Part shown: in pieces, positions 5,716-64,000 of the stretch | Layout of the letters: each line of letters begins with the position of its first letter | Numbering within the stretch: the stretch's first letter is position 1 | Assembly (NCBI RefSeq): GCF_021531695.1 | Contig: NZ_JADYUI010000006.1 | Location: forward strand, 62,001 to 126,000 | Reading direction: 5' to 3' | DNA length: 64,000 bases | Source of the DNA: Roseburia hominis | GTDB taxonomy: Bacteria > Bacillota > Clostridia > Lachnospirales > Lachnospiraceae | Translations under genes and position numbers: made by a program | Notes under the pieces: model-generated | Databases searched by the model: none | The model's input: only the letters and a program-made list of their open reading frames with translations | Told to the model about the DNA's origin: nothing

Positions 5716-5720
5716 AGCAT

Positions 5721-9591: not shown

Positions 9592-10242
9592 TTATTTCTC
9601 TGACTTATGCTCCCCGGTAATGGAAAAAATAACCCACTCAGAAATATTGGTCGCATGATCCCCAATTCGCTCTAAATACTTTGCAATCATAAGAAAATCT
9701 GTTGCCTGTTCCCCATTGTCTGTATTTTGGGAAATTAATTCAATCAGTTCACTCTTCACTTTCATAAAGAGGTCATCTACAACATCATCTTTTCCAATAA
9801 CTTCACCTGCCAGTACCACATCCTTATTCACAAATGCTTCAATACTTTTTACCAGCATAACGGATGCTTCTTTTGCCATATTCTGTATGGTTTCCAGCTC
9901 TTTTATGTATTTCTGGTCTGCCAGCTGAATTGTAATCTCTGAAATATCAGATGCCTGATCCCCGATTCGTTCCATATCCGTAATCATTTTTAAAGCAGAA
10001 GAAATCACTCGTAAATCCTTTGCTACCGGTTGCTGCTGCAATAACAATTTGAGGCAGAGATGTTCAATTTCTCTCTCTTTGTCATCAATCTCCTCATCCA
10101 TCTCAATCGTATCCTGTGCAAGCTTAACATCCTTATTTACCAGTGCGGAAATGGCTTTCTCAATTGCCTTTTCGATCAGACTTCCCATTTCTATCAATTC
10201 ATCATTTAAATGTATCAACTCACGGTCAAAGCGATTTCGCAT
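9592..10242 (-). CDS. phoU: Phosphate signalling protein PhoU
   Basis: A 216-aa all-helical protein made of two PhoU repeats of about 100 residues. Each repeat has the metal-binding ExxxD-type helix (DMERIGDQASDISE near residues 90-103 and YLERIGDHATNISEW near 190-204). PhoU links the Pst transporter to PhoR and dampens phosphate uptake and signalling. It starts 17 nt after pstB with a GGGAGA ribosome site, as the last gene of the pstSCAB-phoU unit. The next gene downstream carries its own Pho box. Confidence 0.96.
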   Translation of the reverse strand: MRNRFDRELIHLNDELIEMGSLIEKAIEKAISALVNKDVKLAQDTIEMDEEIDDKEREIEHLCLKLLLQQQPVAKDLRVISSALKMITDMERIGDQASDISEITIQLADQKYIKELETIQNMAKEASVMLVKSIEAFVNKDVVLAGEVIGKDDVVDDLFMKVKSELIELISQNTDNGEQATDFLMIAKYLERIGDHATNISEWVIFSITGEHKSEK

Positions 10243-10259
10243 ATCTTTTTCTCCCTTCC

Positions 10260-11012
10260 TTAACCAAAACGTCCTGTAATATAATCTTCTGTTCTTTTAT
10301 CTTTCGGCATGGAAAATAACTGCTCTGTCTGACCATGCTCTACCAATTCTCCCAACAGGAAAAATGCTGTTTCATCTGAAACACGCGTTGCCTGCTGCAT
10401 ATTATGTGTCACCATGACGATTGTATATTTTTCTTTTAATTCCAACACCAGATCTTCGATTTTAGAAGTAGAAATCGGATCAAGTGCAGATGTCGGCTCA
10501 TCCATTAAAATTACTTCCGGTTCTACGGCAAGTGCTCTTGCAATACATAAACGCTGCTGCTGTCCACCGGAAAGACCTAAGGCACTCTTTTTTAAACGAT
10601 CCTTTAATTCATCCCAGATTGCTGCCTGCTTTAATGATTTTTCCACAATAGCATCCAGTTTTGCCTTGGAGCGGATTCCATGAGTTCTCGGACCATAAGC
10701 AATATTATCATAAATACTCATCGGAAATGGATTCGGGCTCTGGAATACCATGCCAACACGCTTTCTTAAATGATTTACATCCATGTTTCCATAAATTTCT
10801 TCACCGTCCAATAAGATTTCGCCGGTAATTTTACATCCTTCCACCAAATCATTCATTCGGTTTAAAGATTTTAAAAAAGTAGATTTACCACAACCACTTG
10901 GTCCGATAAATGCTGTGATTTCATTTTTATGAATATCCAGATTAACGTCTTTTAATGCATGAAAATTGCCATAATATAAATTCATATTACGAATAGTAAA
11001 TTTATTCTCCAT
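10260..11012 (-). CDS. pstB: Phosphate ABC transporter ATP-binding protein PstB
   Basis: The cytoplasmic ATPase of the high-affinity phosphate importer, 250 aa. Visible motifs are Walker [17 protein letters not shown] (near residues 37-52), the signature [16 protein letters not shown], Walker [14 protein letters not shown] and the switch histidine in MVTHNM. The SLNRMNDL segment after Walker A and the [16 protein letters not shown]-loop are typical of PstB. It lies 12 nt after pstA and has an AGGAGA ribosome site. It works with PstA and PstC at the membrane. Confidence 0.97.
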
Positions 11013-11024
11013 AAGATTCTCCTA

Positions 11025-11864
11025 TCAGTGTTTTTCTAATTTCTTTGCAATACCGGATGAGAGCATATTGATAAAGATTACAAGTACCAAAAGCACAACC
11101 GCTGTTGCATATGCCTCATTGGTATTTAGTCCTTCCTTGGAAAGATTATACATATGTACCGATAAGGTTCTTGTAGAATCAAAAATACTTTTTGGCACTT
11201 TTGCTACCGTACCCGCGGTATAAATAAGTGCTGCCGTCTCACCGACAATACGTCCGATTGATAAGATAATACCGGAAAGAATTCCCGGAACTGCTGCCGG
11301 TAATACAATACGAAAAACCGTACGAAGCTTGCCTGCTCCAAGTCCAAAACTTGCCTCCCTGTAGGAATCCGGCACCGCAAGTAACGCTTCTTCTGTTGTT
11401 CGCATGATAACCGGAAGTACCATGATTGCAAGCGTAAATGCACCGGATAAAAGAGAATAACTCCAATTACAGGTACCGACAAAAAATAACATTCCAAACA
11501 ATCCGTATACAATGGATGGAATCCCGGTCAGAGTCTCTGCCGTAATCCGAACCAGTCCTACTACTTTATTTCCTTTTTTTGCATATTCCGTCAGATACAC
11601 TGCCGCAAAAATACCAAGCGGTGCTGCAATAAGAAGTGTAAGAACTGTCATAAGAAGCGTATTTATAATACTTGGAAGCATCGAAACATTTTCTGAATTA
11701 TACTCCCACTCAAATAAAGACAGCTTCAAATGCGGAACACCTTTTACTAAAATATAAAGCACCAGAAAGCCAAGCACACTTACCGTAAAAGCTGCTGCCA
11801 GATAGGTGAAAATACGAAGGATCAGGGAACCCGGATGATTTTTATATACTTTTAATTTTTCCAT
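11025..11864 (-). CDS. pstA: Phosphate ABC transporter permease PstA
   Basis: A 279-aa integral membrane permease with about six membrane segments. The binding-protein-dependent transport motif is visible in the EASFGLGAGKLRTVFRIVLPAAVPG region near residues 170-194, the loop that contacts PstB. PstA pairs with PstC to form the phosphate channel. Its ATG directly follows the pstC stop (TAA ATG), so the two are probably translated in a coupled way. Confidence 0.95.
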   Translation of the reverse strand: MEKLKVYKNHPGSLILRIFTYLAAAFTVSVLGFLVLYILVKGVPHLKLSLFEWEYNSENVSMLPSIINTLLMTVLTLLIAAPLGIFAAVYLTEYAKKGNKVVGLVRITAETLTGIPSIVYGLFGMLFFVGTCNWSYSLLSGAFTLAIMVLPVIMRTTEEALLAVPDSYREASFGLGAGKLRTVFRIVLPAAVPGILSGIILSIGRIVGETAALIYTAGTVAKVPKSIFDSTRTLSVHMYNLSKEGLNTNEAYATAVVLLVLVIFINMLSSGIAKKLEKH

Positions 11865-12716
11865 TTATTCCACCGTCCTTCTTTTTAAAATTGAAAACAA
11901 AAGGTTTATAATAAGAATAAACACAAACAATACAACACCTGTTGCGATTAATGCTTCTCTGTGTAAATCAGCCGCATATCCCATTTCAATTACGATATTG
12001 GCTGTCAAAGTACGTATCCCTTTAAAAATTCCTTTCGGCATTCTTGCCTGATTTCCAGCCACCATAATAACTGCCATGGTCTCTCCTATCGCTCTTCCGA
12101 CTCCCAGAATTACTCCTGCCAGAATTCCGGATTTTGCAGCAGGAACCACAGTCAAAAATACACTTCTCTCATGTGTCGCGCCAAGTGCGAGTGCTCCTTC
12201 ATAATATTTGTTTGGCACTGCACGGATTGCCGATTCTGCCACTCCTATGATACTTGGCAAAATCATGATTCCAAGCAGAATGGATGCCGTAAATATGCTA
12301 TTTCCGTTTCCTTTAAAATGTTCTCTCGTCCAAGGTACCAATACACAAAGACCAAAAAATCCATAAACAACGGATGGAATCCCTGCAAGCAAATCTACAC
12401 CAGGTTTTAAAATCCGATATAATTTTTGCGGACAAAATCTTGCCAGAAATACCGCCGTTAAAATTCCAACCGGAACTCCGATAAGAAGTGCTCCTGCTGT
12501 CACATAAATACTCCCCAGTATCATTGGCAGAATACCAAATTTATTATTTCCCGGTTTCCACAGTTTCCCCCCGACAAACTCGAACAATCCGATTTCTTTT
12601 ATTGCCGGCACACCATTCATAAACAAAAAGATACAAATCAGTGCAACCGCAAGAATACTGACACACGCTGCCAGAAGAAACAGCAGTTCCATTCCTTTTT
12701 CTTTTACTTTTCTCAT
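11865..12716 (-). CDS. pstC: Phosphate ABC transporter permease PstC
   Basis: A 283-aa permease. The N-terminal membrane segment LLFLLAACVSILAVALICIFLFM is followed by a periplasm-facing loop with LWKPGNNKFGILPMILGS, a hallmark of PstC. The cytoplasmic coupling loop is EGALALGATHERSVFLTVVPAAKSG. It lies 115 nt downstream of pstS, separated by a hairpin, so pstCAB-phoU may be transcribed at lower level than pstS. The ribosome site before the ATG is only moderate (AGGGA). Confidence 0.95.
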   Translation of the reverse strand: MRKVKEKGMELLFLLAACVSILAVALICIFLFMNGVPAIKEIGLFEFVGGKLWKPGNNKFGILPMILGSIYVTAGALLIGVPVGILTAVFLARFCPQKLYRILKPGVDLLAGIPSVVYGFFGLCVLVPWTREHFKGNGNSIFTASILLGIMILPSIIGVAESAIRAVPNKYYEGALALGATHERSVFLTVVPAAKSGILAGVILGVGRAIGETMAVIMVAGNQARMPKGIFKGIRTLTANIVIEMGYAADLHREALIATGVVLFVFILIINLLFSILKRRTVE

Positions 12717-12780
12717 ACTATTTAATCCCTTATCCCGTTTTTCCTATGTAGAAACGATATACTCGCATACATAAACCGGA

Positions 12781-12807
12781 AAAAGAGCTGTATTTTTAAC
12801 AGCCCTT
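12781..12807 (-). terminator. Hairpin between pstS and pstC (partial terminator or processing site)
   Basis: On the minus strand AAGGGCTGT pairs with ACAGCTCTT around an ATTTTTA-type loop, followed by a short T run. It lies just after the pstS stop. Partial termination here would allow more PstS than permease, the usual ratio for binding-protein operons. Confidence 0.65.
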
Positions 12808-12831
12808 CTTTTCCGTCATTTTTTAACGATT

Positions 12832-13812
12832 TTATTCTTCTACTTCTTCCCAAGTAGTAACATCGCCTCTAAAGATACTGTTTACCTGATCTTTGGTAAG
12901 TTCTTCGATTGGATTGTTCTTATTTACGATAACTGCAATACCATCTTTTGCGATAACTGTTGGAGTAAGTCCTCCGTCAAGTTCTGTATCCTTTAACTCT
13001 CTGGACGCCATTCCGATATCACAAGTTCCGTCCATAGCTGCTGTCATACCTGTAGTAGAATCACTTTCCTGGATTTCAATCTCTGCACCGGTATTTACTT
13101 TCTGATATGCTTCCTGTAATTTTTCCATAACCGGTGTTACGGAAGAAGAACCAGCGATTACAATTTTTCCTGTTGCGCCATTTGATTCAAACGCAGCTGC
13201 ATCAGAAGCTTTAATGTAACCATTGTCTTCAATAATTGCCTGTCCATCTGCGCTCAAAATGTAATTAATAAAATCCTGTGTTATTTCGCTTACATCACCT
13301 TTTGTTGCAATGTTAAATGGTCTTGCAATTGTATAACTTCCATTATTGATATTCTCTGCGGTTGGTTCTGCTCCGTCAATCCATACTGCCTTTACCGTAT
13401 CGTTCAAAGAACCAAGAGAAGAGTATCCGATTGCATAATCATCACCTGCAACTGTTGTCATCACGATTTCTGTGCTGTTTGCAATGATCGCTTCTTCTGT
13501 TGTATAGTCTATTTTCTCGCCATTTGCATCTTTTTCTTCTACTCCGAATAATTCGATAAATGCTCCTCTTGTACCAGAACCATCTTCTCTGGATACTACG
13601 GAAATATCAGAACTTTTATCAAAGTCTGTACCTTCTTCGTCAGCTTCGCTTTCTTTTTCTTCTTCTTCTGCTGCATCTGTATCCTCAGAAGTTTCTGCAC
13701 TGTCAGTTGTCGCAGCACTTGAATCTGCCGTTGTATCACTTGTACTTCCGCATCCTGCCAATGCTCCAACTGTTAACAAGCCACATACCAATAAACACAT
13801 TTTTCTTTTCAT
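12832..13812 (-). CDS. pstS: Phosphate-binding lipoprotein PstS with circularly permuted domain order
   Basis: A 326-aa surface lipoprotein that captures phosphate for PstCAB. The signal peptide ends in a lipobox (LAGC, Cys21), followed by an acidic Ser/Thr/Glu-rich linker to about residue 67. The order of conserved blocks is unusual. REDGSGTRGAF, normally in the middle of PstS, comes first (residues 75-85), with the DFINYILS and NGYI blocks after it. The block that normally opens mature PstS (IAGSSSVTP, about 219-227) comes later, followed by SDSTTGM and the NSIFRGDVTTWEEV block at the very C-terminus. This is what a circular permutation of the two-lobed fold would give. The start has GGAGG 8 nt upstream, and a Pho box precedes it. 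Confidence 0.93.
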   Translation of the reverse strand: MKRKMCLLVCGLLTVGALAGCGSTSDTTADSSAATTDSAETSEDTDAAEEEEKESEADEEGTDFDKSSDISVVSREDGSGTRGAFIELFGVEEKDANGEKIDYTTEEAIIANSTEIVMTTVAGDDYAIGYSSLGSLNDTVKAVWIDGAEPTAENINNGSYTIARPFNIATKGDVSEITQDFINYILSADGQAIIEDNGYIKASDAAAFESNGATGKIVIAGSSSVTPVMEKLQEAYQKVNTGAEIEIQESDSTTGMTAAMDGTCDIGMASRELKDTELDGGLTPTVIAKDGIAVIVNKNNPIEELTKDQVNSIFRGDVTTWEEVEE

Positions 13813-20968: not shown

Positions 20969-21115
20969 GTCTAATTCCTCCTAATTTAAAAATATATTAA
21001 GATTTAAAAATTTTTATCTCAATATACATTTATACTTCATTGTCTGATTTTTAGACATTTTTTTTAAATTGTCTATGAAACTTTTGGTTTTCTTTGCTAT
21101 CACAGGATTTTTTAT

Positions 21116-21927
21116 TTAACGATACACCAAATCAAATTCTTCTAATACACACAGACCTTTCTCATCAAAGGGCTGTCCTGCCTCCGCATAATCCGGTGTA
21201 AATGATTCACGGTGAACCTTTCTCCAGTACGCAAGACTTCTGTCTCCCTCTCCTTCTAAATAAGCATGACGTTCTGAAACTTCATCGAATGGTACCATTG
21301 ACACTTTGTTCCTTCTAATACCAAACGTGCAAGTTCATCACCGATTTCACCGCCACCGCAAAAAGCCCACGCCTCATAGGTATCATTAATTCCTTTTTCT
21401 TTTGCAAATTGCTTCCACATTTCTTCTGCAGTCATTTTATGCCTCCTTAAATTCAGTTTCATATAAATTGATGTATCCATCGGACTGTTGTTATAGCTTT
21501 GAATTTCGTAAAAACCATACTTTTTATACATACAGATAGCGGCTTTCAAAAAAGGCAATGTATCTAATAACATATATTCATAACCAATTTCCTTTGCCTC
21601 TGCAATAATATGTTTTATTAAAAAATCTCCAATATGTTTTCCGCGAAATTGTGGGCGAACATATAATCGTTTCATTTCACAATTTAAATCATCAATTTTT
21701 CTTATGCCAATGCATCCTGCTAATTCCCTATTATAATAAACTAAATATAATCTGCCAAACGGCCTGCCGTATTTATCTTCTAAATGCTCCAATTCCGAAT
21801 CATAATTTTGAATTTCAAGATACTTCTTAAAATTGCTGTCTTTCTCGATCAACATGTCTGTATACTCAGAAAACAAAAGTCCAACTTCTTTTTTATGCTT
21901 ATAAGCTTCAACCAGTTCAATACTCAT
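21116..21927 (-). pseudogene. GNAT acetyltransferase fused to a deleted ASCH-domain gene
   Basis: Residues 1 to about 155 are a normal GNAT acetyltransferase (GCIGIRKIDD, VRPQFRGKHIGDFLIKHII). With no stop, the frame then runs through AAGGAGGCATAAAATG, which is a ribosome site and ATG for a second gene, into MTAEEMWKQFAKEKG. This is the start of an ASCH (YhfF-like) protein. After GDELARLVLEGTK that frame ends quickly (stop at 21256). The rest of ASCH resumes in another frame at VPFDEVSERHAYLEGEGDRSLAYWRKVHRE and ends at 21116. About 40-45 residues appear deleted between the parts. The acetyltransferase may still work; the ASCH part is almost certainly dead. Confidence 0.8.
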
Positions 21928-21978
21928 TAAAAATACCTCTTAAAAATTTAGATTTAACAGTATAAATTTTTTGACACT

Positions 21979-22240
21979 CACCGCCGGAATGATTTTTTAT
22001 CAGAGTTCATTCTGCAAAAATTCCTAAGCTGCAAGAGAACTTTTTTCGATGATTTTTGTTTTTTTAAACTTCGACATCCTTTGTCAAAATGTTCGTCAGA
22101 GAAAAGACAACTTCGTCTTTTCCTGCCGGACATTTCTCCTTGGATGTCTTCGTGGCAAAAACAAAAAATGAAAAGTTCTCTTTCTACAGCATAAGGAATT
22201 TTAAGCATCATGAAATTCAAAAAAATCATTTCCGGCGGTA
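21979..22240. repeat. Long palindromic element 1 (about 260 bp, near self-complementary)
   Basis: CCGCCGGAATGATTTTTT at 21981-21998 is matched in inverse at 22219-22238. Inward, AATTCCTAAGCTGC...GAGAACTTTT matches the inverse of AAAAGTTCTC...AAGGAATT at 22171-22200. Further in, TTTTTGTTTTTTT...CATCC matches GGATG...AAAAACAAAAA, and the core AAATGTTCGTCAGAGAAAAGAC matches GTCTTTTCCTGCCGGACATTT around an AACTTC loop. The arms are about 125 nt and the symmetry centre is near 22111. Short reading frames inside have no family resemblance. It may be a MITE-like element or a gene for a giant hairpin RNA. Confidence 0.7.
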
Positions 22241-53060: not shown

Positions 53061-56000
53061 TTAATTTTCGTTTTCATTCACCAGTTTTTCTATCAGTTTC
53101 AATTTTTCATAACGCTGTTTTGCCTTCTTATCTGCTTCTGCAAATAACTCTTCTGCACGTTCTTTTTGGAATTTAAGAAGTGATGCATATCGATTTTCTC
53201 CTGCCAGAAATTCCTGATAGGATTCCTTGTTTTGCTTCGAATCCACAACCAAAAACGCTTTTCTTTCTTCTCCATCTTTTGGATGATATCGGAAATTTAC
53301 CCAATACCCTGACGCTACTGCCCTTTTTTCTTCCTCCTGAGTAATACGCATCCCTTTTTTAATTCCATGATTGATACATGGTGCATATGCAATAATAAGA
53401 GACGGTCCTTTATATGCCTCTGCCTCTGCAATTGCCTTAATACACTGATTCTTGTCCGCCCCCATTGCAATTTGTGCCACATAGACAGATCCGTAACTCA
53501 TCGCCATCATTGCCAGCTCCTTTTTCGATGTCCTTTTTCCACCTGCACAAAAACGTGCGGATGCCCCAAGCGGAGTTGCTTTTGATGCCTGTCCTCCCGT
53601 GTTAGAATAAACTTCCGTATCAAATACCAGAACATTGATATCCTCTCCCGATGCCAGAACATGATCCAGTCCGCCAAAACCGATATCATATGCCCAGCCA
53701 TCTCCGCCAAAAATCCATTGTGATTTTTTATTTAAAAAATCTTTTTTCTCTAAAATGCTGTTAAGGCACTCTCTCTGGTTACTATCTGACTCCTTTGTCT
53801 GCTCTAAAATCTGAAGCAATGTATCTGTTGCTTTTCCATTTTCTTTCCGGTTCCCATAAGTAGAAAGCCAGTTTGTAAATGCTGTCTTTATCTTTTCATT
53901 CATTGTCTTATCTTTTAAAATTGTTTCCTGTTTCAGCAATTCTTTTATTCGTCTTTTTAACTCTTTTCTCATATACTCTTGTGCAAATAACATTCCGTAC
54001 CCAAATTCAGCGGCATCTTCAAACAACGAATTTGCCCATGCCGGTCCCTTTCCACACGCATTGACGGTATATGGGGTAGAAGGGAAAGAATTTCCCCAGA
54101 TAGAGGAACACCCGGTCGCGTTTGCAATATACAGACTCTCGCCAAACAACTGTGTAACAAGTTTCGCATAAGGAGTTTCGCCACAACCACCGCACGCACC
54201 GGAAAATTCAAGCAATGGCCGTTTGAACTGGGAACCTTTCACGCTTTCTTCCGGAAATTTCTGCAAAACCTCTTCTTTTTCCGGTAATGAGATAGCATAA
54301 TCATACTGTTTTTGTTGCTTTGCATAACTCGAAAAATCTTTCATTAGAATTGCTTTCTTAGGTGCCGGACAGACTTCCACACAATTTCCACATCCGGTAC
54401 AATCCAGTGCTGAAACTGTAATGGCAAATTTATACTCACTGCATCCTTTCATATCCGCATATTCTACCGGAAACCCTGCCGTAATGATTTCTTCTGAAGT
54501 TAAAACAGCCGGTCTTATCACGGCATGCGGGCATACGTAAGAACATTGATTACACTGAATACAACGCTCCTTGAGCCAGACAGGAATCTCTGTTGCTACT
54601 CCTCTTTTTTCATAAGCTGCCGTACCGGACGGTGTTCTTCCGTTTGCATAAGCTGTCATGGCAGAAACCGGTATCTCATTCCCTTTTTGTACGTTCACCG
54701 GATTCTGAATTTGTTCTACAAACGAAATGACTTCTCTATCATGTTCTTTTGATTTTATATTTTTATTTAAAACATATGATCTTCGCTCTGCTTTTTCCCG
54801 ACATTCTATCCACTCCACAGGTATCTTTACTTCTTCATAAGCCTCCATTCCGGCATCTATTGCCTTATGATTCATGGCAATGATTTCTTCTCCTTTCTTT
54901 GCGTACGTTTTACTTACTGCATCTTTTAAATATCCATGCACCTCTTCTTTCGGCAAGAGACCTGCCAGGGCAAAAAATGCCGCCTGTAAAATCGTATTTA
55001 TCCTGCTTCCCAATCCGATTTCTCTTGCAATCTTTCCGGCATCTATCGTATAAAAATGAATCCTTTTTTCTGCAAGATGATATTTTACATTTTCCGGAAG
55101 TTTTTCTTCTAATTCTTCTTTTTTCCACGGACAGTTCAATAAAAATATACCGTTTTCCACTAAATCTTCCACCATCGGATATTGGTACAGATACGCCGTG
55201 CAATGGCATGCCACAAAATCTGCCTTAGAAACCAGATATGCTGCCCGAATCGGTTCTGTTCCAAAGCGCAGATGCGAAATGGTAAGACCACCGGACTTTT
55301 TGGAATCATATTCAAAATATGCCTGCACTTTGAGATTCGTATAGTCTCCTATAATTTTTATTGAATTCTTATTTGCACCTACCGTTCCGTCAGCGCCCAA
55401 TCCCCAGAATTTACAACTCTTGGTTCCCTCTTTGGTCGTAATCGGCTCCTTCGTTACCTTTAAGGATAATTTCGTGACATCATCTGTAATTCCTATCGTA
55501 AATGCTTCTTTTTCTTCATTCAAAAATGCTTCCAGGATCTGTCCCGGTGTCGTATCTTTCGAACCGAGTCCATATCTGCCATGAAATACCCTGCATCTGT
55601 CAAAACGGCTCTCCTTTAATGCCGTTACCACATCCAGATACAACGGTTCTCCTATAGCACCCGGTTCTTTGGTACGGTCTAATACAATCAATTTTTCCAC
55701 AAATTCCGGCAACTCCTGTAAAAATGCTTCCTTTACAAATGGTCGATATAAATGTACCTCTACCAGACCCACTTCCTTTCCCATTTCTTTTAAGTAATCC
55801 ACCACTTCTTTTATCGTTTCACAGACAGAACCCATTGCAACCATAACAAGTGTTGCCTCTCTGCTTCCATAATAATTAAAAAGCCGGTAATCCGTTCCAA
55901 TCCTCTCGTTAATCCTCTGCATCTGCCCAAGCACGATTTCCGGCAATCTGTCATAAAGCACATTTGCCGCTTCTCTCGTCTGGAAAAACAAATCCGGATT

Positions 56001-56660
56001 CTGTGCACTTCCCATCTCATAGGGATGATTCGGATTTAATGCATGCCGCCTGAATTCCGCAATGGATGTAAAATCTGCAAGTTCCTTTAGTTCCTCATAA
56101 TCCCAGGTTTCCACCTTTTGTATCTCATGAGAAGTACGAAATCCATCAAAAAAATTGAGAAATGGAATCTTTCCCTGAATTGCCGCAAGATGTGCAACCG
56201 GACTTAAATCCATCACCTCCTGTACCGATGATTCACAAAGCATTGCCACCCCGGTCTGCCTGCAGGCGTAAATATCCGAATGGTCTCCAAAAATACTGAG
56301 TGCATGGCTTGCCACTGCCCTCGCAGAGACCTGTATCACGCCGGGAAGCTGTTCCCCTGCCATTTTATACAAATTCGGAATCATGAGAAGCAATCCTTGC
56401 GATGCCGTATAGGTTGTAGAAAGTGCTCCTGCCAGTAAACTTCCATGCATTGCTCCTGCAACCCCTGCCTCTGACTGCATCTGTTTTACTTCTACCACAT
56501 TTCCAAAGATATTTTTTCTTCCATTTAATGCCCATTCATCTGTAATTTCCGCCATAACAGAAGATGGAGTAATTGGATAAATTGCTGCTACCTCCGTATA
56601 AGCATATGACACATGCGCTGCTGCATGATTTCCGTCCATCGTGATTTTTTTTCGTTCCAT
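53061..56660 (-). CDS. nifJ: Pyruvate:ferredoxin (flavodoxin) oxidoreductase
   Basis: A 1199-aa homodimeric enzyme oxidising pyruvate to acetyl-CoA and reducing ferredoxin. The N-terminal domain has TMDGNHAAAHVSYAYTEVAAIYPITPSS. Two ferredoxin clusters are CIQCNQCSYVCPHAVIRP and CTGCGNCVEVCPAPKKAIL. The TPP domain near the C-terminus has SGACGGCGETPYAKLVTQLFG, WIFGGDGWAYDIGFGGLDHVLASGEDINVLVFDTEVYSNTGGQ and CINHGIKKGM. ATG 56660 is preferred to 56690 because AAAGGA lies upstream at better spacing. A second, apparently closer-to-canonical copy begins at the window's right edge. Confidence 0.96.
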   Translation of the reverse strand: MERKKITMDGNHAAAHVSYAYTEVAAIYPITPSSVMAEITDEWALNGRKNIFGNVVEVKQMQSEAGVAGAMHGSLLAGALSTTYTASQGLLLMIPNLYKMAGEQLPGVIQVSARAVASHALSIFGDHSDIYACRQTGVAMLCESSVQEVMDLSPVAHLAAIQGKIPFLNFFDGFRTSHEIQKVETWDYEELKELADFTSIAEFRRHALNPNHPYEMGSAQNPDLFFQTREAANVLYDRLPEIVLGQMQRINERIGTDYRLFNYYGSREATLVMVAMGSVCETIKEVVDYLKEMGKEVGLVEVHLYRPFVKEAFLQELPEFVEKLIVLDRTKEPGAIGEPLYLDVVTALKESRFDRCRVFHGRYGLGSKDTTPGQILEAFLNEEKEAFTIGITDDVTKLSLKVTKEPITTKEGTKSCKFWGLGADGTVGANKNSIKIIGDYTNLKVQAYFEYDSKKSGGLTISHLRFGTEPIRAAYLVSKADFVACHCTAYLYQYPMVEDLVENGIFLLNCPWKKEELEEKLPENVKYHLAEKRIHFYTIDAGKIAREIGLGSRINTILQAAFFALAGLLPKEEVHGYLKDAVSKTYAKKGEEIIAMNHKAIDAGMEAYEEVKIPVEWIECREKAERRSYVLNKNIKSKEHDREVISFVEQIQNPVNVQKGNEIPVSAMTAYANGRTPSGTAAYEKRGVATEIPVWLKERCIQCNQCSYVCPHAVIRPAVLTSEEIITAGFPVEYADMKGCSEYKFAITVSALDCTGCGNCVEVCPAPKKAILMKDFSSYAKQQKQYDYAISLPEKEEVLQKFPEESVKGSQFKRPLLEFSGACGGCGETPYAKLVTQLFGESLYIANATGCSSIWGNSFPSTPYTVNACGKGPAWANSLFEDAAEFGYGMLFAQEYMRKELKRRIKELLKQETILKDKTMNEKIKTAFTNWLSTYGNRKENGKATDTLLQILEQTKESDSNQRECLNSILEKKDFLNKKSQWIFGGDGWAYDIGFGGLDHVLASGEDINVLVFDTEVYSNTGGQASKATPLGASARFCAGGKRTSKKELAMMAMSYGSVYVAQIAMGADKNQCIKAIAEAEAYKGPSLIIAYAPCINHGIKKGMRITQEEEKRAVASGYWVNFRYHPKDGEERKAFLVVDSKQNKESYQEFLAGENRYASLLKFQKERAEELFAEADKKAKQRYEKLKLIEKLVNENEN

Positions 56661-56720
56661 TGCACTTAAATTCCTTTCCTGTTTTACCATTACGTTTTCC
56701 TGTTTCTGGTATTTTTATAC

Positions 56721-57170: not shown

Positions 57171-57371
57171 TTACTTCATATATAAACCTGCCAATTTCAT
57201 ATTTTCATCAAAAGTAATGGTATAGGTAACCTCTACATTTTCATACATTACCGCAACCTGCACAACCGCATATCGCTGCCCCCTTTGTCTTATCTCAGAC
57301 ATATAAAAATCCCCAAAAGACTGAATTTCTCCCCAGTCACTGCCAACCTGTCTTCTGGCATCTTCTATCAC
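57171..57371 (-). pseudogene. DUF3887 protein, 5'-truncated
   Basis: The 66-codon frame starts with GTG and reads IEDARRQVGSDWGEIQSFGDFYMSEI...YAVVQVAVMYENVEVTYTITFDENMKLAGLYMK. This is the C-terminal part of the DUF3887 domain; the signal peptide and first half are missing. The break lies 6-10 nt from the stop of the HD-Hsp90 gene, the downstream edge of the defence island. It looks cut by insertion of the island or by a deletion there. No ribosome site precedes the GTG. Confidence 0.72.
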
Positions 57372-57377
57372 TTCTAT

Positions 57378-60300
57378 TTAAATAGTCTCATTTTTTCTTG
57401 ACCAATTATCAATAGAATACAAAGTGTAATTTTGTGTGAGTATTTTATTTACAAATTCTTGTGTATCTATCTTTGCCCACATTTTCTCAATCAATTCATT
57501 ACTAACCCTTATAAATCTTTCTTCTAGTAACTGTTTAAACATACTAGTTGTATTTACATCTTGTTTATATGCTACTTCCAACACTCTACTATCAAACACA
57601 TATGCAAAAAATACTTCTAACAAAATTTTATTTTCCTCAGTATTTTCTTTCTGAAAAGCCTCAATCACCCTAATCAAATAATTGCATAATTCCGTATTAC
57701 TTTGTATATATATTCCACCAAAAGTTTTTACTCCTATTTCTTCTTCTAATCCTGAAATTGATACATTCTTTTTAGGAATATATAATGACTTAGCCATCAC
57801 CCCCCTATTTCTCAAATCAAATTCATACCACAAATCACTTTTAGAAGAATAAGTAAAATGAATTCTTCTTTGTTTATGTGCCACATCAATCTTGCTAACT
57901 TCCTTATTTCTAAGCGCATATTGATGTAACAAATTACTCATATCTATATTACATATGATATTTTTAACATCCTTTAAAAAATTATCCTCACACACAACGC
58001 TTATAAGACTACTTAAAGTCGCATTACTTCTGACCTCTTTCAGAAGATATTCACCCGCTCTAGTCATTTCGCATTCAAAAATATTTATCTCTTCTAACTC
58101 GGCAACTTCTTCAGCAGAAACCACTCGTCTTACACCTTCATTTTCTAATGCTAAACATTTCAAATGTGCCAACCTGTGAATCAACACATCTTCATCTATT
58201 GGTTCTACTCGATTATTGCTATACTCGTCATAAATCAAAGGTCGCATCAAATATCTTCCTTCTGACATTGCCCATGATTGTGCATAATCTTGTGCCTCTA
58301 ATCTATCCATCTGTTCTTGTACATACTCTTTATATACGTCATATATATCGGATAAAATCTCATTATTTGCATCTAATTCAATCGCAGATCTCGCCACATT
58401 TGTCTGATACTTACTATTCTTTATATTTGCAATCGCCAATATTGATGTGTTTTTATATCCGGGTGTAGAGAATTCAACTCTTATGCCTTCAACACAAGTT
58501 CCAATAGGTAACATTGTTTTTCTTTGAACCCGCCTAGTATCAGCACTCATCAAACACCAATCTGACATATATTTCAAATGTCTCACCGCATAAGCCACAG
58601 TCACATTCCCATGTTCTTTTTCATACACATCATATTTTTCTCCATCAACATCATGTCCTGTTTCATTTAAATATTTTACTAATATTTCTTTTAATGAATC
58701 ATAACCAATTCTAATACTTTCGCCATTATCAATGGATAAATATACTGGGATTTCTGGAATTACAATCCACTTTCGTAAGTCATTTTCTATTTTTGTCATA
58801 TCGACATCGCTCCTGACATACAACCTCACCATTGTTCCATGTTGTTTTATTCGTTTATCCAAATCATTTTTATTCAACTTTCGTAACAAATAACTACCAT
58901 TTACTTTACGCAAATTAATACTATTCGCTTCCTCTTGTTCAACCGAACTTGTCTCTATATCAATATCATTTGCCACCATAAAACAAGTTAAAATCCCAAT
59001 ACCAAAGTGACTTATGGATGTAAAATCAGGAAACTGTTTCTTTACTGTCTCATCTCTATACTTTGATGCACCAACTTTTAATAGATAATTTTCAACATCT
59101 TGTATAGACATACCAGTTCCATTATCCCAAAAACTCAATTGTCGTTTTTGACTATCCCATTCAACCCAAACCTGTCCCCGATCATAACTCTTGCCATTCT
59201 TTTTTTCATATTCTGCCTGTAATCTAACCGCATCTATTCCATTTTGAACCAATTCTCTAACTACTACAGAAGAATCATTATATAAAGTATGCCCAACTAA
59301 TAATTGTAAAATATTATCTTGCGCAATAGTAAATTGTAGTTTTTTCTTTTCAAATCCATTAACCTCTATTTGAGATTCATCAATTTCTCTCCAAGGAAAT
59401 TCATATCCTACTGCGCCTTCTCTTTTTTGAGCCTTTTCAACTATTCCACAACATTTTGCCAATTCTTTACGTGTATATTGTAAATACGATGATAATCCAA
59501 AATAAGCATCCGCAGTCTCTGCTCCATCAAAATAGGCAGTTATTTCTATAGTGTCTTTCTGCTTACTATCATCTACAGCACCATCTTCATTTCTTTGGTC
59601 TTTTGGTCCAACTGCTCTAACTGCCATTTGTTTTTCCCATTCAAGAACACTTATTGGATTACTTACATTAATAAGTCTTCTTGCAACAGACGGAGTTCTA
59701 TCCCTAGTTATGTGCAACAAATCTGCAATGCGTAAAATAATAGCGATATAATTAAGATTTACTCTTTCATTCTCTGTATTTCCATACATCTTTTTTACTT
59801 TATACTTCGCAAAATCCTCAATGTCATCTTTATGATGACTTTCACATATCATAGCTAAATCTGCTTTAAACATACTATCTAAGTTTTTTAATATATCATC
59901 AATTTCCTCACATACTGTTCCGGCTTCGCCTAAATTCTTACTACTTTTTCCTTCAATCCATTGACGAATCCGCGCAGCATGATTTTCACGTACAAATTCC
60001 TGATATAAAAAAGAATCCCCCCGTTCTTTAGCATACTCTCCATATTCCGATTCCTGTGTATCTTTCAATACTTTTTCTTTGTATTCCCTAAATGTGGTCT
60101 CATATCTATGTTCAAATTCATCTTTTGTAACCACCATACCCAAATCATGAAAATAAATAGCAAGAGTAAGCATTAGCCATTCTGCATATGTCATTTTTTC
60201 TTTCGTAGTATTCGGAATTAGCCACTCCACAATTTTTAACATTTCATCAACATGAGCTATACTATGCACTGTATATTCTTCAAATATTCCACCTTTCCCA

Positions 60301-60419
60301 ATGAATCCCAGCATAACTTCTACTCTATCCCTAATGTGTAATAACTTTATACCTCTACAAAATGACAGTTTTTCTGCTTTTTCAGCTTGTACTTCTGCAT
60401 AATTAGCAAACTCATCCAT
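57378..60419 (-). CDS. HD-domain / Hsp90-type (GHKL) ATPase defence protein
   Basis: A 1013-aa protein. Residues about 50-240 carry an HD-type phosphohydrolase pattern: His52/His56 in TVHSIAHVDEML, HD at 91-92 in AIYFHDLGMV, histidines in ICESHHKDD (195-196) and Asp233 in ILRIADLLHI. Residues about 360-700 form an Hsp90/GHKL ATPase: N-box ELVQNGIDA (389-397), DNGTGM (432-437) and HFGIGILTCF (471-480). The C-terminal 300 residues are unassigned. ATG 60419 has AGGAGAA 7 nt upstream, 37 nt after the endonuclease stop. It belongs to a restriction-modification operon and probably uses ATP and nucleotide hydrolysis to regulate or execute defence. Confidence 0.85.
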   Translation of the reverse strand: MDEFANYAEVQAEKAEKLSFCRGIKLLHIRDRVEVMLGFIGKGGIFEEYTVHSIAHVDEMLKIVEWLIPNTTKEKMTYAEWLMLTLAIYFHDLGMVVTKDEFEHRYETTFREYKEKVLKDTQESEYGEYAKERGDSFLYQEFVRENHAARIRQWIEGKSSKNLGEAGTVCEEIDDILKNLDSMFKADLAMICESHHKDDIEDFAKYKVKKMYGNTENERVNLNYIAIILRIADLLHITRDRTPSVARRLINVSNPISVLEWEKQMAVRAVGPKDQRNEDGAVDDSKQKDTIEITAYFDGAETADAYFGLSSYLQYTRKELAKCCGIVEKAQKREGAVGYEFPWREIDESQIEVNGFEKKKLQFTIAQDNILQLLVGHTLYNDSSVVVRELVQNGIDAVRLQAEYEKKNGKSYDRGQVWVEWDSQKRQLSFWDNGTGMSIQDVENYLLKVGASKYRDETVKKQFPDFTSISHFGIGILTCFMVANDIDIETSSVEQEEANSINLRKVNGSYLLRKLNKNDLDKRIKQHGTMVRLYVRSDVDMTKIENDLRKWIVIPEIPVYLSIDNGESIRIGYDSLKEILVKYLNETGHDVDGEKYDVYEKEHGNVTVAYAVRHLKYMSDWCLMSADTRRVQRKTMLPIGTCVEGIRVEFSTPGYKNTSILAIANIKNSKYQTNVARSAIELDANNEILSDIYDVYKEYVQEQMDRLEAQDYAQSWAMSEGRYLMRPLIYDEYSNNRVEPIDEDVLIHRLAHLKCLALENEGVRRVVSAEEVAELEEINIFECEMTRAGEYLLKEVRSNATLSSLISVVCEDNFLKDVKNIICNIDMSNLLHQYALRNKEVSKIDVAHKQRRIHFTYSSKSDLWYEFDLRNRGVMAKSLYIPKKNVSISGLEEEIGVKTFGGIYIQSNTELCNYLIRVIEAFQKENTEENKILLEVFFAYVFDSRVLEVAYKQDVNTTSMFKQLLEERFIRVSNELIEKMWAKIDTQEFVNKILTQNYTLYSIDNWSRKNETI

Positions 60420-60456
60420 ATAATTCTCCTCTTTCTGTATACTACTATATTTATAG

Positions 60457-61197
60457 TTAATCTCCCGAATTAAATTCCACCAGTTTTTCCCAGTCAATAC
60501 CTCCATCTTCTCGACAGAAGCTATTAGAAAATTCTCTAACCAATCTATTTGCTGCCCTATTATAGCTTTCCTTATAATCAGCAACATATTTTTCCGGCAT
60601 AATTCCCATATACCCAATAATCTTTATATAGAATTCCTCATCTCCCGTTAATTCTGCCCAAAACCGTTTTCCAGCCAATTCTTGATACATTTTCGGTTTT
60701 CCTCTACCGGAATCTTTTTTTTTGCCATAACAATAACCTATGTATGCTTCATATCTTGCCTTTGCCTGCTGAGCCAATTTAGAAGCAGCAATAAAGTTCT
60801 GTTCCTGGCGTTTCTTACTGTCCGCATTAAACACTGATGGCCCACTTTTTACCGCTATAGCGGAAATCGTGTTCGCCTCTTTGTTTTGAATCATAATATC
60901 AATACCTTCAGCAAGAGCTTTATTTCCACCGCTAGCAGCTATGGCTATAGGCTCAAAAAAACAGTTTCCAAAAATTGTCTCTTCACTCGAACTTACAAAA
61001 GCGGTAAGAACAGAATCTACAATTTCTGCCGCACTCTGCATAGCTTTTGCACGGTATAAATATGGATTTTTTCGTTTCATTATTTTCTGTATATTTAATC
61101 CATCTATTTTCTCAATTAATGTCCCATAAAAAGTTTCCAAAGCTGATGCGATTGCCTCAGTCACCGCTTGCTCATCATATGAATTATTTAATGGCAT
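60457..61197 (-). CDS. PmeII-family type II restriction endonuclease
   Basis: A 246-aa endonuclease. It follows the PmeII family pattern: RKNPYLYRAKAMQSAAEIVDSVLTAFVSSSEETIFG early, then EGIDIMIQNKEANTISAIAVKSGPSVFNADS (D...AVKSG, a PD-(D/E)XK-like core), YIGYCYGKK, RFWAELTGDEEFYIKII and FCREDGGIDWEKLVEFNSGD at the end. It should cut DNA lacking the partner's C5 methylation; the site is unknown. ATG 61197 has AGGAGG 8 nt upstream and overlaps the methyltransferase end by 14 nt. Confidence 0.88.
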   Translation of the reverse strand: MPLNNSYDEQAVTEAIASALETFYGTLIEKIDGLNIQKIMKRKNPYLYRAKAMQSAAEIVDSVLTAFVSSSEETIFGNCFFEPIAIAASGGNKALAEGIDIMIQNKEANTISAIAVKSGPSVFNADSKKRQEQNFIAASKLAQQAKARYEAYIGYCYGKKKDSGRGKPKMYQELAGKRFWAELTGDEEFYIKIIGYMGIMPEKYVADYKESYNRAANRLVREFSNSFCREDGGIDWEKLVEFNSGD

Positions 61198-62392
61198 ATA
61201 CATTTCCTCCTAACTCTATTGCACTTCGTATCTTGTTATGCACATTCGTCCCTCTAAAACGTTTTGTTTGAACCAAAGCAGTATCATCTGCCACCGAAAG
61301 AACCGCATTTCCAATAGCCTTTGCCAAACCAACAGGAACCGCATTTCCAATCTGTCTATATTTTGCAGCGGTAGTACCTGTAAAAATCCAATCATCCGGA
61401 AATTGCTGAATTCTCGCATATTCCTTTACGCTCAATGGTCTATTTTGAGTTGGATGGCACATCATTGTTGCTTTCTGAACAGGAGATGTAACTACAGTAG
61501 GAGAAGGTTGATCGTATGATAATCTCCTGTAAAAACCGGCTTTTCCGCCTCCTGACTTATAAGCTCCTCCCATTGCTATAGGAATAATATCTTCGGGCAA
61601 GTCTCTCCAATTGCCTCCTTCAGGAACCATTTTTAAAAATTTCAAGCGTTCCACACTTAAATTTGCGCACTCTCCCTCATCAAATTCCAAATCTTCAATT
61701 ACACTCCGCACAGTTTGCCACTGATATTCTTTATTCTGATGCATCTGAAAATGCGTAGGGATTGGTAAAAAAACATCTTCATTATCACGGCTTCCAATCA
61801 ATACAAATCTTTCTCTAAACTGTGGAACACCATAGTTCACAGCATCCAACACTCCATAAACCGTCTTGTATCCTAATTTGTCGAATTCAGTTAGAATTAC
61901 ATCTAAAACTGTTCCTAATCTCTGACTAGGATCATTTTCATTTCTTTCCGATAAAGGCACATGTTTTAAAGGTGCTGACATTATTCCCTTCACATTTTCC
62001 ATAACAAAGAATCTAGGACGTATGTAATCTATCATCCGAATAAAATCCATAAACAAGCTACCTCGTGGGTCATTGATTCCTAATCGTTTTCCCGCCGTAG
62101 AAAAAGGCTGACATGGCGGTCCCCCACAAATTAAAAACGGCTCGCCTACTGATAATCCTGTTAATTCTAATAAATTCTGCGGCTCTATTTCCCTAATATC
62201 CCCACCTAATACTTTATGCCCATTCGCCCTCATAGTTTTAACGCAAGAGGCATCAAAATCCTGTCCAATTACTACATTCAAACCTGCTTTTCCTAATCCT
62301 ATATCTAATCCCATAGCCCCCGAAAACAAAGAAATAACATCTCTATTATCCGCATATTTGCTATAACCATTCTGTTTAATATTAATGCTCAT
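61184..62392 (-). CDS. DNA (cytosine-5-)-methyltransferase
   Basis: A 402-aa Dcm-type enzyme. Motif I is VISLFSGAMGLDIGLGKAGLNVV, motif IV GGPPCQPFSTAGKRLG (with the catalytic cysteine), motif VI FVMENVKGI, motif VIII QFRERFVLIGSRD, and IX-X include PSPTVVTSP and KYRQIGNAVPVGLAKAIG. The target-recognition region is about 235-320. Its ATG overlaps the TGA of the HTH gene (TGATG), so the two are co-translated. It protects host DNA from the PmeII-like enzyme. Confidence 0.95.
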   Translation of the reverse strand: MSINIKQNGYSKYADNRDVISLFSGAMGLDIGLGKAGLNVVIGQDFDASCVKTMRANGHKVLGGDIREIEPQNLLELTGLSVGEPFLICGGPPCQPFSTAGKRLGINDPRGSLFMDFIRMIDYIRPRFFVMENVKGIMSAPLKHVPLSERNENDPSQRLGTVLDVILTEFDKLGYKTVYGVLDAVNYGVPQFRERFVLIGSRDNEDVFLPIPTHFQMHQNKEYQWQTVRSVIEDLEFDEGECANLSVERLKFLKMVPEGGNWRDLPEDIIPIAMGGAYKSGGGKAGFYRRLSYDQPSPTVVTSPVQKATMMCHPTQNRPLSVKEYARIQQFPDDWIFTGTTAAKYRQIGNAVPVGLAKAIGNAVLSVADDTALVQTKRFRGTNVHNKIRSAIELGGNVYAIK

Positions 62393-62601
62393 CAAATTTT
62401 CTCTCCGTTTTCTAATACAAATTTTCTTTCGAAAGAACAATTCACAGCCTCTGCAATATCTTCTAACTCAGCTATGGTAAAACTTTCTCTTTTCATTTTT
62501 CCACCTAAATTCTGCGGTGTTGTACCTATTCGTCGTGCCAATTCTGCAACACTAATATTGGAACGAACGCATAACACCTTAATTTGCTCGGAAATCGTCA
62601 T
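62392..62601 (-). CDS. HTH controller protein (Cro/CI type)
   Basis: A 69-aa DNA-binding protein: MTISEQIKVLCVRSNISVAELARRIGTTPQNLGGKMKRESFTIAELEDIAEAVNCSFERKFVLENG. The helix-turn-helix is near residues 16-40. Small proteins of this kind ahead of a methyltransferase gene are usually controller (C) proteins timing expression of restriction genes. GAGGTAA precedes the ATG. It is the first gene of the operon. Confidence 0.9.
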   Translation of the reverse strand: MTISEQIKVLCVRSNISVAELARRIGTTPQNLGGKMKRESFTIAELEDIAEAVNCSFERKFVLENGEKI

Positions 62602-62639
62602 TTTGATTACCTCATTTTCAAATAAATTATTATTTTACT

Positions 62640-62668
62640 AGTATAAATCATCAGCTTTATATCGTCAA
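62640..62668 (-). promoter_or_regulatory. Promoter of the restriction-modification operon
   Basis: Minus strand TTGACG (62663-62668) and TATACT (62640-62645) are spaced 17 bp, 39 bp upstream of the HTH start. Confidence 0.78.
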
Positions 62669-62800
62669 TCAAATAATTCATTCACTAACGGTGAGGGGTA
62701 AATAGTAGGATGAATTGCAACACGAGATTCCCTTTTGTAACGCAAGATGCCCGCTTTGTAAATGAAAATCTCCTTTTGTAAACAACTTTCCCATTTCACA

Positions 62801-62863: not shown

Positions 62864-64000
62864 TTATTTGTAAAGCTCAACTAATCTCTCTAAATGCTCA
62901 TAACGTTTCTTAGCTGCTTCTTCAGATTCTTTAAAGAGTTTTTCTGCTCTTTCTGGGAAGGATCTTGCAAGACGGCTGTAACGTGTCTCATTCTTCAAGA
63001 AATCCTGATATGTTCCATCGCCTGGTTTAGAAACCAAAGTAAATGGATTCTTTCCTTCTGCCTTTAATTCCGGATTGAAGGAGAAGAGGTTCCAGTAACC
63101 TGCTGCTACTGCTTTCTTCATTTCATCCTGGCAGTGGTTCATTCCACCCTTAACACCGTGTAATTCACATGGAGCATATCCGATAATTAAGGAAGGTCCG
63201 TTGTAAGCTTCTGCTTCTTTTAATACTTTAACAGCCTGAGCCATATTTGCACCAAGAGCAATCTGTGCTACATATACGTAACCATAGCTCATAGCGATTT
63301 CAGCAAGGCTCTTTTTGCTGATATCTTTACCGGAAGCTGCAAACTGGCAAACTTCACCGATATTAGAAGCTTTGGAAGCCTGACCACCTGTATTAGAGTA
63401 CATTTCTGTATCGAATACCATAACGTTTACATTATTTCCGGAAGCAAGTACATGGTCTAATCCACCGAAACCGATATCATAAGCCCATCCGTCACCACCG
63501 AAGATCCATACGGACTTCTTAGCAAGGTAATCTTTCTTAGCAAGAGCTGCTTTTGCATCCGGGCATCCGGCTGCTGCTGCTTTTTCTAATTCAGCTACCA
63601 ATGCTTCTGTTGCAGGTGTATTTGCTTTTGTATCATTCTTTGTTTCTTCAAATTTAGCGAATGCTGCTTTTAATTCAGCACTTGCTTTATCGGATTCTGC
63701 ACATTTCTTAGCGCTTTCAATTGCCTGATCACGAAGAACCTGCTGTCCGATTTCCATACCTAAACCATGCTCTGCGTTATCCTCGAATAAGGAGTTAGCC
63801 CAAGCCGGTCCTTTCTTGGAATCTTTATTTACAGTGTATGGTGATGTAGCTGCTGGTCCACCCCAGATAGAAGAACATCCGGTAGCGTTAGAGATGTACA
63901 TATGCTCACCAAATAACTGTGTAATCAAACGAGCGTAAGATGTTTCTGCACAACCTGCACAAGAGCCGGAGAACTCTAAGAGTGGCTGGTTGAACTGAGA
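62864..64000 (-). CDS. nifJ: Pyruvate:ferredoxin oxidoreductase, second copy (partial, N-terminus outside window)
   Basis: The 378 residues in the window are the TPP-binding C-terminal part of a NifJ enzyme. They start with SQFNQPLLEFSGSCAGCAETSYARLITQLFGEHMYISNATGCSSIWGG. Further blocks are WIFGGDGWAYDIGFGGLDHVLASGNNVNVMVFDTEMYSNTGGQ and PCELHGVKGGMNHCQDEM. It is close in sequence to the nifJ at 53061-56660 but clearly a separate gene. The frame is open to base 64000. Codon choice and family fit suggest this is the main, highly expressed enzyme. Confidence 0.95.
   Translation of the reverse strand, partial: SQFNQPLLEFSGSCAGCAETSYARLITQLFGEHMYISNATGCSSIWGGPAATSPYTVNKDSKKGPAWANSLFEDNAEHGLGMEIGQQVLRDQAIESAKKCAESDKASAELKAAFAKFEETKNDTKANTPATEALVAELEKAAAAGCPDAKAALAKKDYLAKKSVWIFGGDGWAYDIGFGGLDHVLASGNNVNVMVFDTEMYSNTGGQASKASNIGEVCQFAASGKDISKKSLAEIAMSYGYVYVAQIALGANMAQAVKVLKEAEAYNGPSLIIGYAPCELHGVKGGMNHCQDEMKKAVAAGYWNLFSFNPELKAEGKNPFTLVSKPGDGTYQDFLKNETRYSRLARSFPERAEKLFKESEEAAKKRYEHLERLVELYK

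Follow-up and report, generated by a model that had tools for sequence, protein, structure and literature searches.

Here we describe a four-gene operon at positions 57378–62601 (minus strand) of a 64,000-nucleotide stretch of Roseburia hominis DNA (RefSeq assembly GCF_021531695.1, contig NZ_JADYUI010000006.1, positions 62,001 to 126,000), which as a whole is called the window below. In our opinion the operon is probably a mobile type II restriction cassette combined with an autonomous immune gene, whose product joins an N-terminal HD-CE domain to an Hsp90-like ATPase (HD-Hsp90), the ATPase acting as the probable gate of a nucleotide-cleaving effector. The cassette occurs in a second genus between different flanks, DNA similarity to other restriction operons breaks where the HD-Hsp90 gene is joined, and relatives of this gene are found almost exclusively at loci where the endonuclease is not detected.

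Organization and boundaries of the cassette

The four genes are read from the minus strand, and their coordinates agree with those of a preliminary description of this DNA. They encode a helix-turn-helix (HTH) protein of the Cro/C1 type, a candidate regulator (69 residues, 62392–62601), a C5-cytosine DNA methyltransferase (402 residues, 61184–62392), a type II restriction endonuclease of the EcoO109I/PmeII family (246 residues, 60457–61197) and HD-Hsp90 (1013 residues, 57378–60419). The HTH and methyltransferase genes are joined by a TGATG overlap, the methyltransferase and endonuclease genes overlap by 14 nt, and the HD-Hsp90 ATG, preceded by AGAGGAG, lies 37 nt past the endonuclease stop, the junction of the two modules being 60420–60456 (minus strand).

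The window's final 20 kb were compared with L045, a locus of Clostridium sp. AT4 which has the same four genes. Similarity is limited to 62681–57388 and the flanks differ, which gives the extent of the whole cassette as 57388–62681 (minus strand; 84% over 5316 alignment columns). The cassette is mobile. Its L045 copy sits between two open reading frames (ORFs) with alike starts (5044–5949 and 21111–22001), the first of them for an rve integrase-type transposase. The GC content is 34.4% in the cassette versus 38.4% in positions 1–53000 of the window. In a genus-mate (G519, locus L162) the end of a pyruvate:ferredoxin oxidoreductase (PFOR) gene, an SdpI-like gene and the next PFOR gene stand in a row without the cassette, with about 160 nt between PFOR and SdpI. 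No convincing att-like repeats were noticed in 350-base stretches at the cassette ends, and a DNA search revealed no copy of the whole cassette among plasmids or phages.

Other restriction operons resemble the window up to the endonuclease stop codon or to a point not more than 10 nt away from it, namely to 60457 (L126, L132, L134), 60447 (L133), 60452 (L138) and, for MT838227, 60456. On the other side of the junction, similarity to the lone gene of L046 covers 60419–57380, which is the HD-Hsp90 ORF alone. Because of these endpoints, the join is placed between two modules, each of which is also found separately.

In the window itself, two PFOR-like genes (53061–56690 and 62864–64000), presumably of this kind in view of their mutual similarity, bracket the cassette together with an SdpI-like gene. 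The cassette end is abutted by a 66-residue ORF (57171–57371, minus strand) matching the C-terminal part of DUF3887 (profile positions 34–91 of 91). L162 has no such truncated ORF between these genes, and the ORF is either a passenger or what is left of a gene that the insertion interrupted.

Occurrence of HD-Hsp90 relatives

Relatives of HD-Hsp90 comprised the best 80 of at least 492 on genome contigs, 16 loci on viral contigs and 10 further loci, and the endonuclease was sought at these loci with tblastn (E 1e-4). Upstream sequence amounted to at least 2 kb at 66 of the 80 genome-contig loci and to less than 2 kb at 14. An endonuclease relative was found at one of the 80, L045, and at none of the viral-contig (0/16) or further (0/10) loci, so that 105 of 106 loci gave no detection. 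The nearest relatives, L046–L054 and the viral-contig locus L185, are without it as well; in L046 the upstream sequence is 0.4 kb long and this flank differs from the endonuclease.

The four-gene order, looked for in other genomes, recurs in one of 96 related loci, again L045, where the HTH protein, methyltransferase, endonuclease and large protein are 90%, 90%, 95% and 89% identical to those of the window; the other 95 loci do not have it. The partnership of an HD-Hsp90 protein with a PmeII operon is unusual, as had been proposed. The accompanying idea that the protein is an integral fourth component, a checkpoint or a loader, is not supported, the endonuclease being undetected at 95 of the 96 loci and at ten more.

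In the family of the host, a relative at E 1e-30 was present in 3 of 397 genomes, the host included, the other two being 31% identical over half the length. In a sample of the phylum, HD-CE scored above the cut-off in 17 of 398 genomes and the endonuclease family in 10, and the two were seen together in the host's own genome only; G366 has them on different contigs, and its HD-CE protein gives no ATPase match. A tree computed by a quick method for 69 of 81 sequences makes the window and L045 sisters (Shimodaira–Hasegawa-like approximate likelihood ratio test, SH-aLRT, 100), with L046 next (99). Phyla are interleaved in it (24 label changes for 12 groups, the minimum being 11). The phylum labels are also clustered, since each of 200 shuffles gave more changes (mean 32.9).

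Viral contigs yielded no relative in a single-protein scan and 16 in an alignment scan, one of them close (L185, 36%). This lone gene (L185:7968–11081, an IMG/VR viral contig) has opposite-strand flanks which look phage-like by eye. On an Aliarcobacter butzleri plasmid (L172:5857–8678) the annotation divides the relative between two adjacent genes, and the fusion may be split; the gene of L093 also looks split (9842–10948 and 10952–13180). The protein encoded 3' of the HD-CE/Hsp90 gene in L070 (13046–15670) contains a GHKL stretch (residues 379–548, E 6e-17 to the Hsp90 part of the window protein) and is perhaps a tandem paralogue. Adjacent genes with a GHKL domain are thus two, one half of the split gene in L093 and the separate protein in L070, and AAA_13 proteins adjoin relatives at 3 loci.

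No recurrent partner was noticed, as the widest cluster among 561 proteins encoded within 4 kb of the relatives covered 5 loci (ABC-ATPase-like by eye). For the four plasmid relatives that matched best, Shedu, type I restriction, AbiEii or TIR genes lie no farther than about 6 kb away, an observation with no control set. The surroundings seem to be defence-rich without tight linkage. A distribution this patchy, over phyla, plasmids and viral contigs and in some cases near defence genes, does not look like that of a housekeeping gene. The preliminary description had named homologues found alone as housekeeping genes as evidence against its proposal: relatives without this restriction system do exist, but they do not look housekeeping-like.

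Genes behind the endonuclease in related operons

The place behind the endonuclease stop, called the slot below, was inspected in 28 operons: the window, L045, L126, L132–L134, L138–L140, L152–L160, L167–L171 and L179–L183. Dropped before this count were L135 (weak match inside another ORF), L184 (44-residue fragment), L176–L178 (same contigs as L138–L140), L151 (second match in G091) and the short duplicates L125, L127–L130, L141–L150 and L163–L166; 13 plasmid matches to the endonuclease stand outside it. Slot contents were taken from ORF listings with Pfam for candidate genes, most other neighbours being assigned by eye. Downstream sequence was short in L180 (359 nt), L126 (1.3 kb), L183 (1.5 kb) and L171 (2.3 kb).

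Slot contents are of five kinds: HD-Hsp90 (the window and L045), Wadjet-like, Hachiman-like, methyltransferase with GmrSD, and methyltransferase with GHKL. In L126 a second C5 methyltransferase gene (Pfam) starts 10 nt past the endonuclease and is followed by a GmrSD-type gene, and L134 has a second C5 methyltransferase (tblastn) and a GmrSD-type gene 28 nt past the endonuclease. The restriction module of L126 is nearly the same as in the window (methyltransferase 92%, endonuclease 96% identical) with the slot filled otherwise. L132 carries JetA and an SMC-like gene, taken as Wadjet, L171 carries HamA and a helicase about 17 nt past the endonuclease, taken as Hachiman, and L155 carries a second C5 methyltransferase (tblastn), a GHKL ATPase and Methyltransf_35. 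These other systems in the same slot of some operons, together with the break of similarity at the module boundary, also speak against an integral fourth component. Judged from sequence comparison, the pairing of restriction system and HD-Hsp90 looks modular, not fixed.

Same-strand genes of no known kind lie within 40 nt of the endonuclease in L138 and L167. The remaining 19 of 28 operons have phage, housekeeping, opposite-strand or unassigned genes, or the contig end, behind the endonuclease; in L156, L157 and L170 that place is taken by the operon's own C5 methyltransferase gene, read from the other strand. On the upstream side of about a dozen closer operons, viewed by eye, Vsr (Pfam) was seen in L171 and a C5-methyltransferase-like gene in L180.

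Two of the loci may be recorded in their own right. In L171:530–5523, a human-gut contig labelled as phage, genes for Vsr, HTH protein, C5 methyltransferase, PmeII-type endonuclease, HamA and helicase follow consecutively. L155:4390–8921 is an EcoO109I-type operon extended by the second C5 methyltransferase, the GHKL ATPase and Methyltransf_35, the added genes possibly being a paraMORC-type system.

Domains and conservation of HD-Hsp90

The HD-CE domain covers residues 1–345 (59385–60419, minus strand; Pfam PF24391, E=5.8e-57, 193.8 bits versus a curated cut-off of 27). It contains H52, H56, H91-D92, H147, H195 and D233. The Hsp90 N-terminal ATPase domain follows at about residues 359–572 (58704–59345, minus strand; HATPase_c_3, 1.6e-10) with E389, N393, D396 and D432, and residues 573–1013 (57381–58703, minus strand) form the middle and partial C-terminal region, modelled with lower confidence. 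An HD pattern combined with an intact ATP site had already been recognized; both have Pfam matches, and H91/D92 and N393, the expected catalytic residues as far as sequence can tell, are conserved in relatives. Both sites are invariant in five distant relatives aligned. In an alignment of 81 sequences, H52, H56, H91, D92, R144, H147, D233 and R241 are invariant in all covering rows (76–80) and H195 is kept in 78 of 79; H52, H56, H91, D92 and D233 are presumably metal ligands.

Structure prediction, proposed earlier as a check, gave a modest match for the HD part and an Hsp90 match for the rest. For the profile of residues 1–345, the H-x3-H...HD motif aligns with class I cyclic-nucleotide phosphodiesterases at E 0.004. 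The HD-CE model has a mean predicted local distance difference test (pLDDT) score of 93.1, and its fold comparison is led by C-terminal domains of exopolyphosphatase (PPX; Z up to 11.8, root-mean-square deviation (rmsd) 4.0, 180 residues aligned) and by class I phosphodiesterases (Z about 10), while in Foldseek the best E was 0.11, with one dGTPase at 0.57. The full-length model reaches pLDDT 79.8 and a predicted template modelling score of 0.55, with pLDDT below 50 at residues 628–650 and 672–678 among others. Its residues 367–1004 match HSP90B (Z 24.1, rmsd 7.2, 400 aligned), and the ATPase domain matches the Grp94 N domain (Z 20.0, rmsd 2.8, 182 aligned). The C-terminal two thirds therefore model as Hsp90 over the N, middle and part of the C domain, beyond a GHKL pocket, so that the earlier term "Hsp90/GHKL ATP site" was right as to presence and understated as to extent.

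HD-Hsp90 was also considered as the housekeeping chaperone HtpG. This was rejected because another gene of this genome (L044; PF00183, 1.9e-57) belongs to the HSP90 family and because the NCBIfam HtpG equivalog is matched in the N domain only, at 88.2 bits, far under its cut-off of 371. No family of PADLOC 2.0.0 (2023 library) matched HD-Hsp90 up to E 1, nor did Pfam give a DUF4263 nuclease domain of the Shedu/VcSduA type up to the same value.

Restriction-modification genes and promoter

The HTH, methyltransferase and endonuclease genes constitute a predicted complete type II restriction-modification system. The HTH protein (Pfam HTH_26, E=1.4e-8) had been called a controller. An HTH gene is indeed in that position, but among PDB sequences the protein had no C protein match and matched the 434 repressor weakly (E 0.025–0.06) and one methyltransferase at 0.34. 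HTH relatives precede the methyltransferase in L045, L167 and L171 too, and a partial one does so in L132. For the methyltransferase (Pfam DNA_methylase, 6.4e-70) the best solved relative is M.HaeIII (9.3e-37). The endonuclease (Pfam RE_EcoO109I, 1.4e-67) scores 227.8 bits against the curated cut-off of 22.5 and has D100 and K117, presumably the catalytic residues of its motif, invariant in 14 aligned sequences; its gene has the neighbouring methyltransferase of EcoO109I/PmeII systems in the overlapping C5 enzyme. The earlier name "PmeII-like" is fair, since, of 13 plasmid records that contain a homologue of the endonuclease, 9 are annotated by NCBI as "PmeII family".

Ahead of the four genes lies one promoter-like site, TTGACG-17-TATACT (62640–62668, minus strand), with 10 of 12 consensus matches; both hexamers and their spacing are also present in L045. 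Two terminator-like sites were found, neither on the minus strand. The single promoter assumed previously is plausible as a consensus match, although the scan gave fewer promoter-like sites than shuffled sequences (13 versus a mean of 26.2).

Discussion

According to the reading preferred here, the operon would hold two modules, and HD-Hsp90, in the slot, would be an immune protein that works autonomously as the product of a single gene. The Hsp90-like ATPase may serve as sensor and switch in the form of an ATP-driven dimer clamp, changing its state on meeting an infection cue or a client protein. The switched clamp would then unleash the N-terminal HD domain, a putative metal-dependent phosphohydrolase, to cleave a free, cyclic or signalling nucleotide, and the cleavage could halt phage replication or cell growth once restriction has failed. 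The shared operon would lend HD-Hsp90 the transcription and mobility of the restriction system. The second line of immunity suggested in the preliminary description thus stands as a candidate. As a broader and more tentative idea, possible although we would not count on it, EcoO109I/PmeII operons may provide a mobile chassis whose cargo slot lies just behind the endonuclease stop. Second-line immune systems would be exchanged there and placed under control of the regulator, so that a costly abortive effector is made only after methylation of the genome.

Several results weigh against these interpretations. Recognizable same-strand defence or modification genes occupy the slot in only 7 of the 28 operons, a small sample, with 21 lacking them; those of L132 and L155 begin 313 and 343 nt past the endonuclease, and the GmrSD gene of L126 is cut by the contig end and scores 22.3 bits, below the cut-off of 33.2. 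A distant C5 methyltransferase relative is located about 2.5 kb upstream in L066, the sole such locus beyond L045. At the ATP site, E389 and D432 are present in 79 of 79 rows and N393 and D396 in 79 of 80, a conservation partly built in because the scan for relatives used ATP-site motifs; only the HD conservation is free of that bias. The fold match of the HD part is modest, with Z 10–12 for a helical domain and no Foldseek E below 0.1. The adjacent genes (130 listed, 129 scanned, L051 9998–10648 being the N terminus of that locus's own HD protein) matched 114 PADLOC models, 88 genes 6.5–10 kb away matched 23, and 48 window genes matched 3, counts which refer to redundant models, not genes, and to sets of different size; the local enrichment is weak, as the far genes are also richer than those of the window.

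Two further points, the four-gene order kept in two genera with different flanks and the rate of nonsynonymous substitution (dN) well under that of synonymous substitution (dS) in all four genes, fit functional coupling too. Along with the one promoter-like site, they favour a dedicated fourth component which works only with the restriction system, for example by detecting DNA cut by the endonuclease, sites left unmethylated or the loss of the endonuclease, and by triggering the HD effector in response. We regard it as unlikely in view of the nearest relatives, L046 with its short upstream sequence among them, and of L126, whose near-identical module has other slot genes. On a contrary view HD-Hsp90 is an accidental neighbour, a mobile gene inserted behind the restriction genes without any selective tie apart from a common integration hotspot. 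In favour of this, the pairing was seen in two cases only, and 21 of the 28 slots are without a recognizable defence gene. The dS of HD-Hsp90 (0.84), lower than that of the restriction genes (1.2–2.0), may mean a separate history, although dS is saturated. Since seven slots have defence or modification genes of five kinds and the cassette, once joined, moved as a unit, such an accident also appears improbable.

Outside immunity, the protein could be a mobile stress regulator in which the Hsp90-like module controls a cyclic-nucleotide phosphodiesterase, as the HD motif is nearest to class I phosphodiesterases and the fold to these and to the exopolyphosphatase domains. We find this quite improbable for a gene scattered over phyla, plasmids and viral contigs, with no recurrent neighbour and with defence genes near several relatives. 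A role as an Hsp90-type chaperone or loader that serves the restriction enzyme or the methyltransferase agrees with the fold and the operon position, but it would leave the conserved HD site unexplained, 26 of 28 operons have no HD-Hsp90 downstream in the sequence at hand, and relatives do without a detectable endonuclease at all loci but one; its probability is very low.

HD-CE/Hsp90 proteins are widespread and keep both catalytic sites; in the literature searched, we found nothing on the HD-CE domain and no experimental studies of such proteins. The cassette offers a small and presumably naturally co-expressed example for asking if an Hsp90 engine can act in immune sensing. Should the exchangeable slot be borne out by a larger survey, it would give a precise unit for studying a restriction system stacked with a second line of defence.

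In its endonuclease family and neighbouring methyltransferase the cassette resembles known EcoO109I/PmeII systems. It differs from their plasmid relatives, several of which (of 13) overlap a site-specific or PvuII-type methyltransferase annotation, in having an upstream C5 enzyme and a filled downstream slot. Nicastro et al. in 2023 reportedly counted HD-CE with the effectors that target nucleotides and linked HSP90-related modules, in the role of a STAND-like switch, to effectors of this type. HD-Hsp90 is a member of the HD-CE/HSP90-module class predicted there. As in those conflict systems (PF24391), an HD-CE domain is joined to an HSP90-like module; here, in distinction, the gene closes a type II restriction operon and travels with it. 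The protein class itself was thus predicted earlier, and what is new here is the junction-precise, exchangeable slot and the cassette.

Parallels can also be drawn with other systems. VcSduA of the Shedu type likewise has a GHKL ATPase and an effector in one protein, and its GHKL or nuclease mutants lose phage defence, but its effector is a PD-(D/E)xK nuclease (PMC12137116), in place of which the window protein has an HD phosphohydrolase with an Hsp90 fold. MORC and paraMORC GHKL ATPases are encoded beside restriction systems (PMC2292703), and a paraMORC-HEPN fusion is an analogous effector arrangement (PMC3710099); unlike these, the window protein is closest to Hsp90 and has an HD domain, and the GHKL ATPase in the slot of L155 is of unassigned type. 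CloA of Clover, an HD dGTPase in defence, resembles it in that an HD phosphohydrolase serves as a regulated antiviral effector, which is a prediction in the present case, but CloA is regulated by nucleotides and a partner enzyme, without an Hsp90 module (PMC12265719). By analogy with VcSduA and with HD dNTPase defence enzymes, we infer that in HD-Hsp90 an Hsp90 clamp may gate the HD phosphohydrolase.

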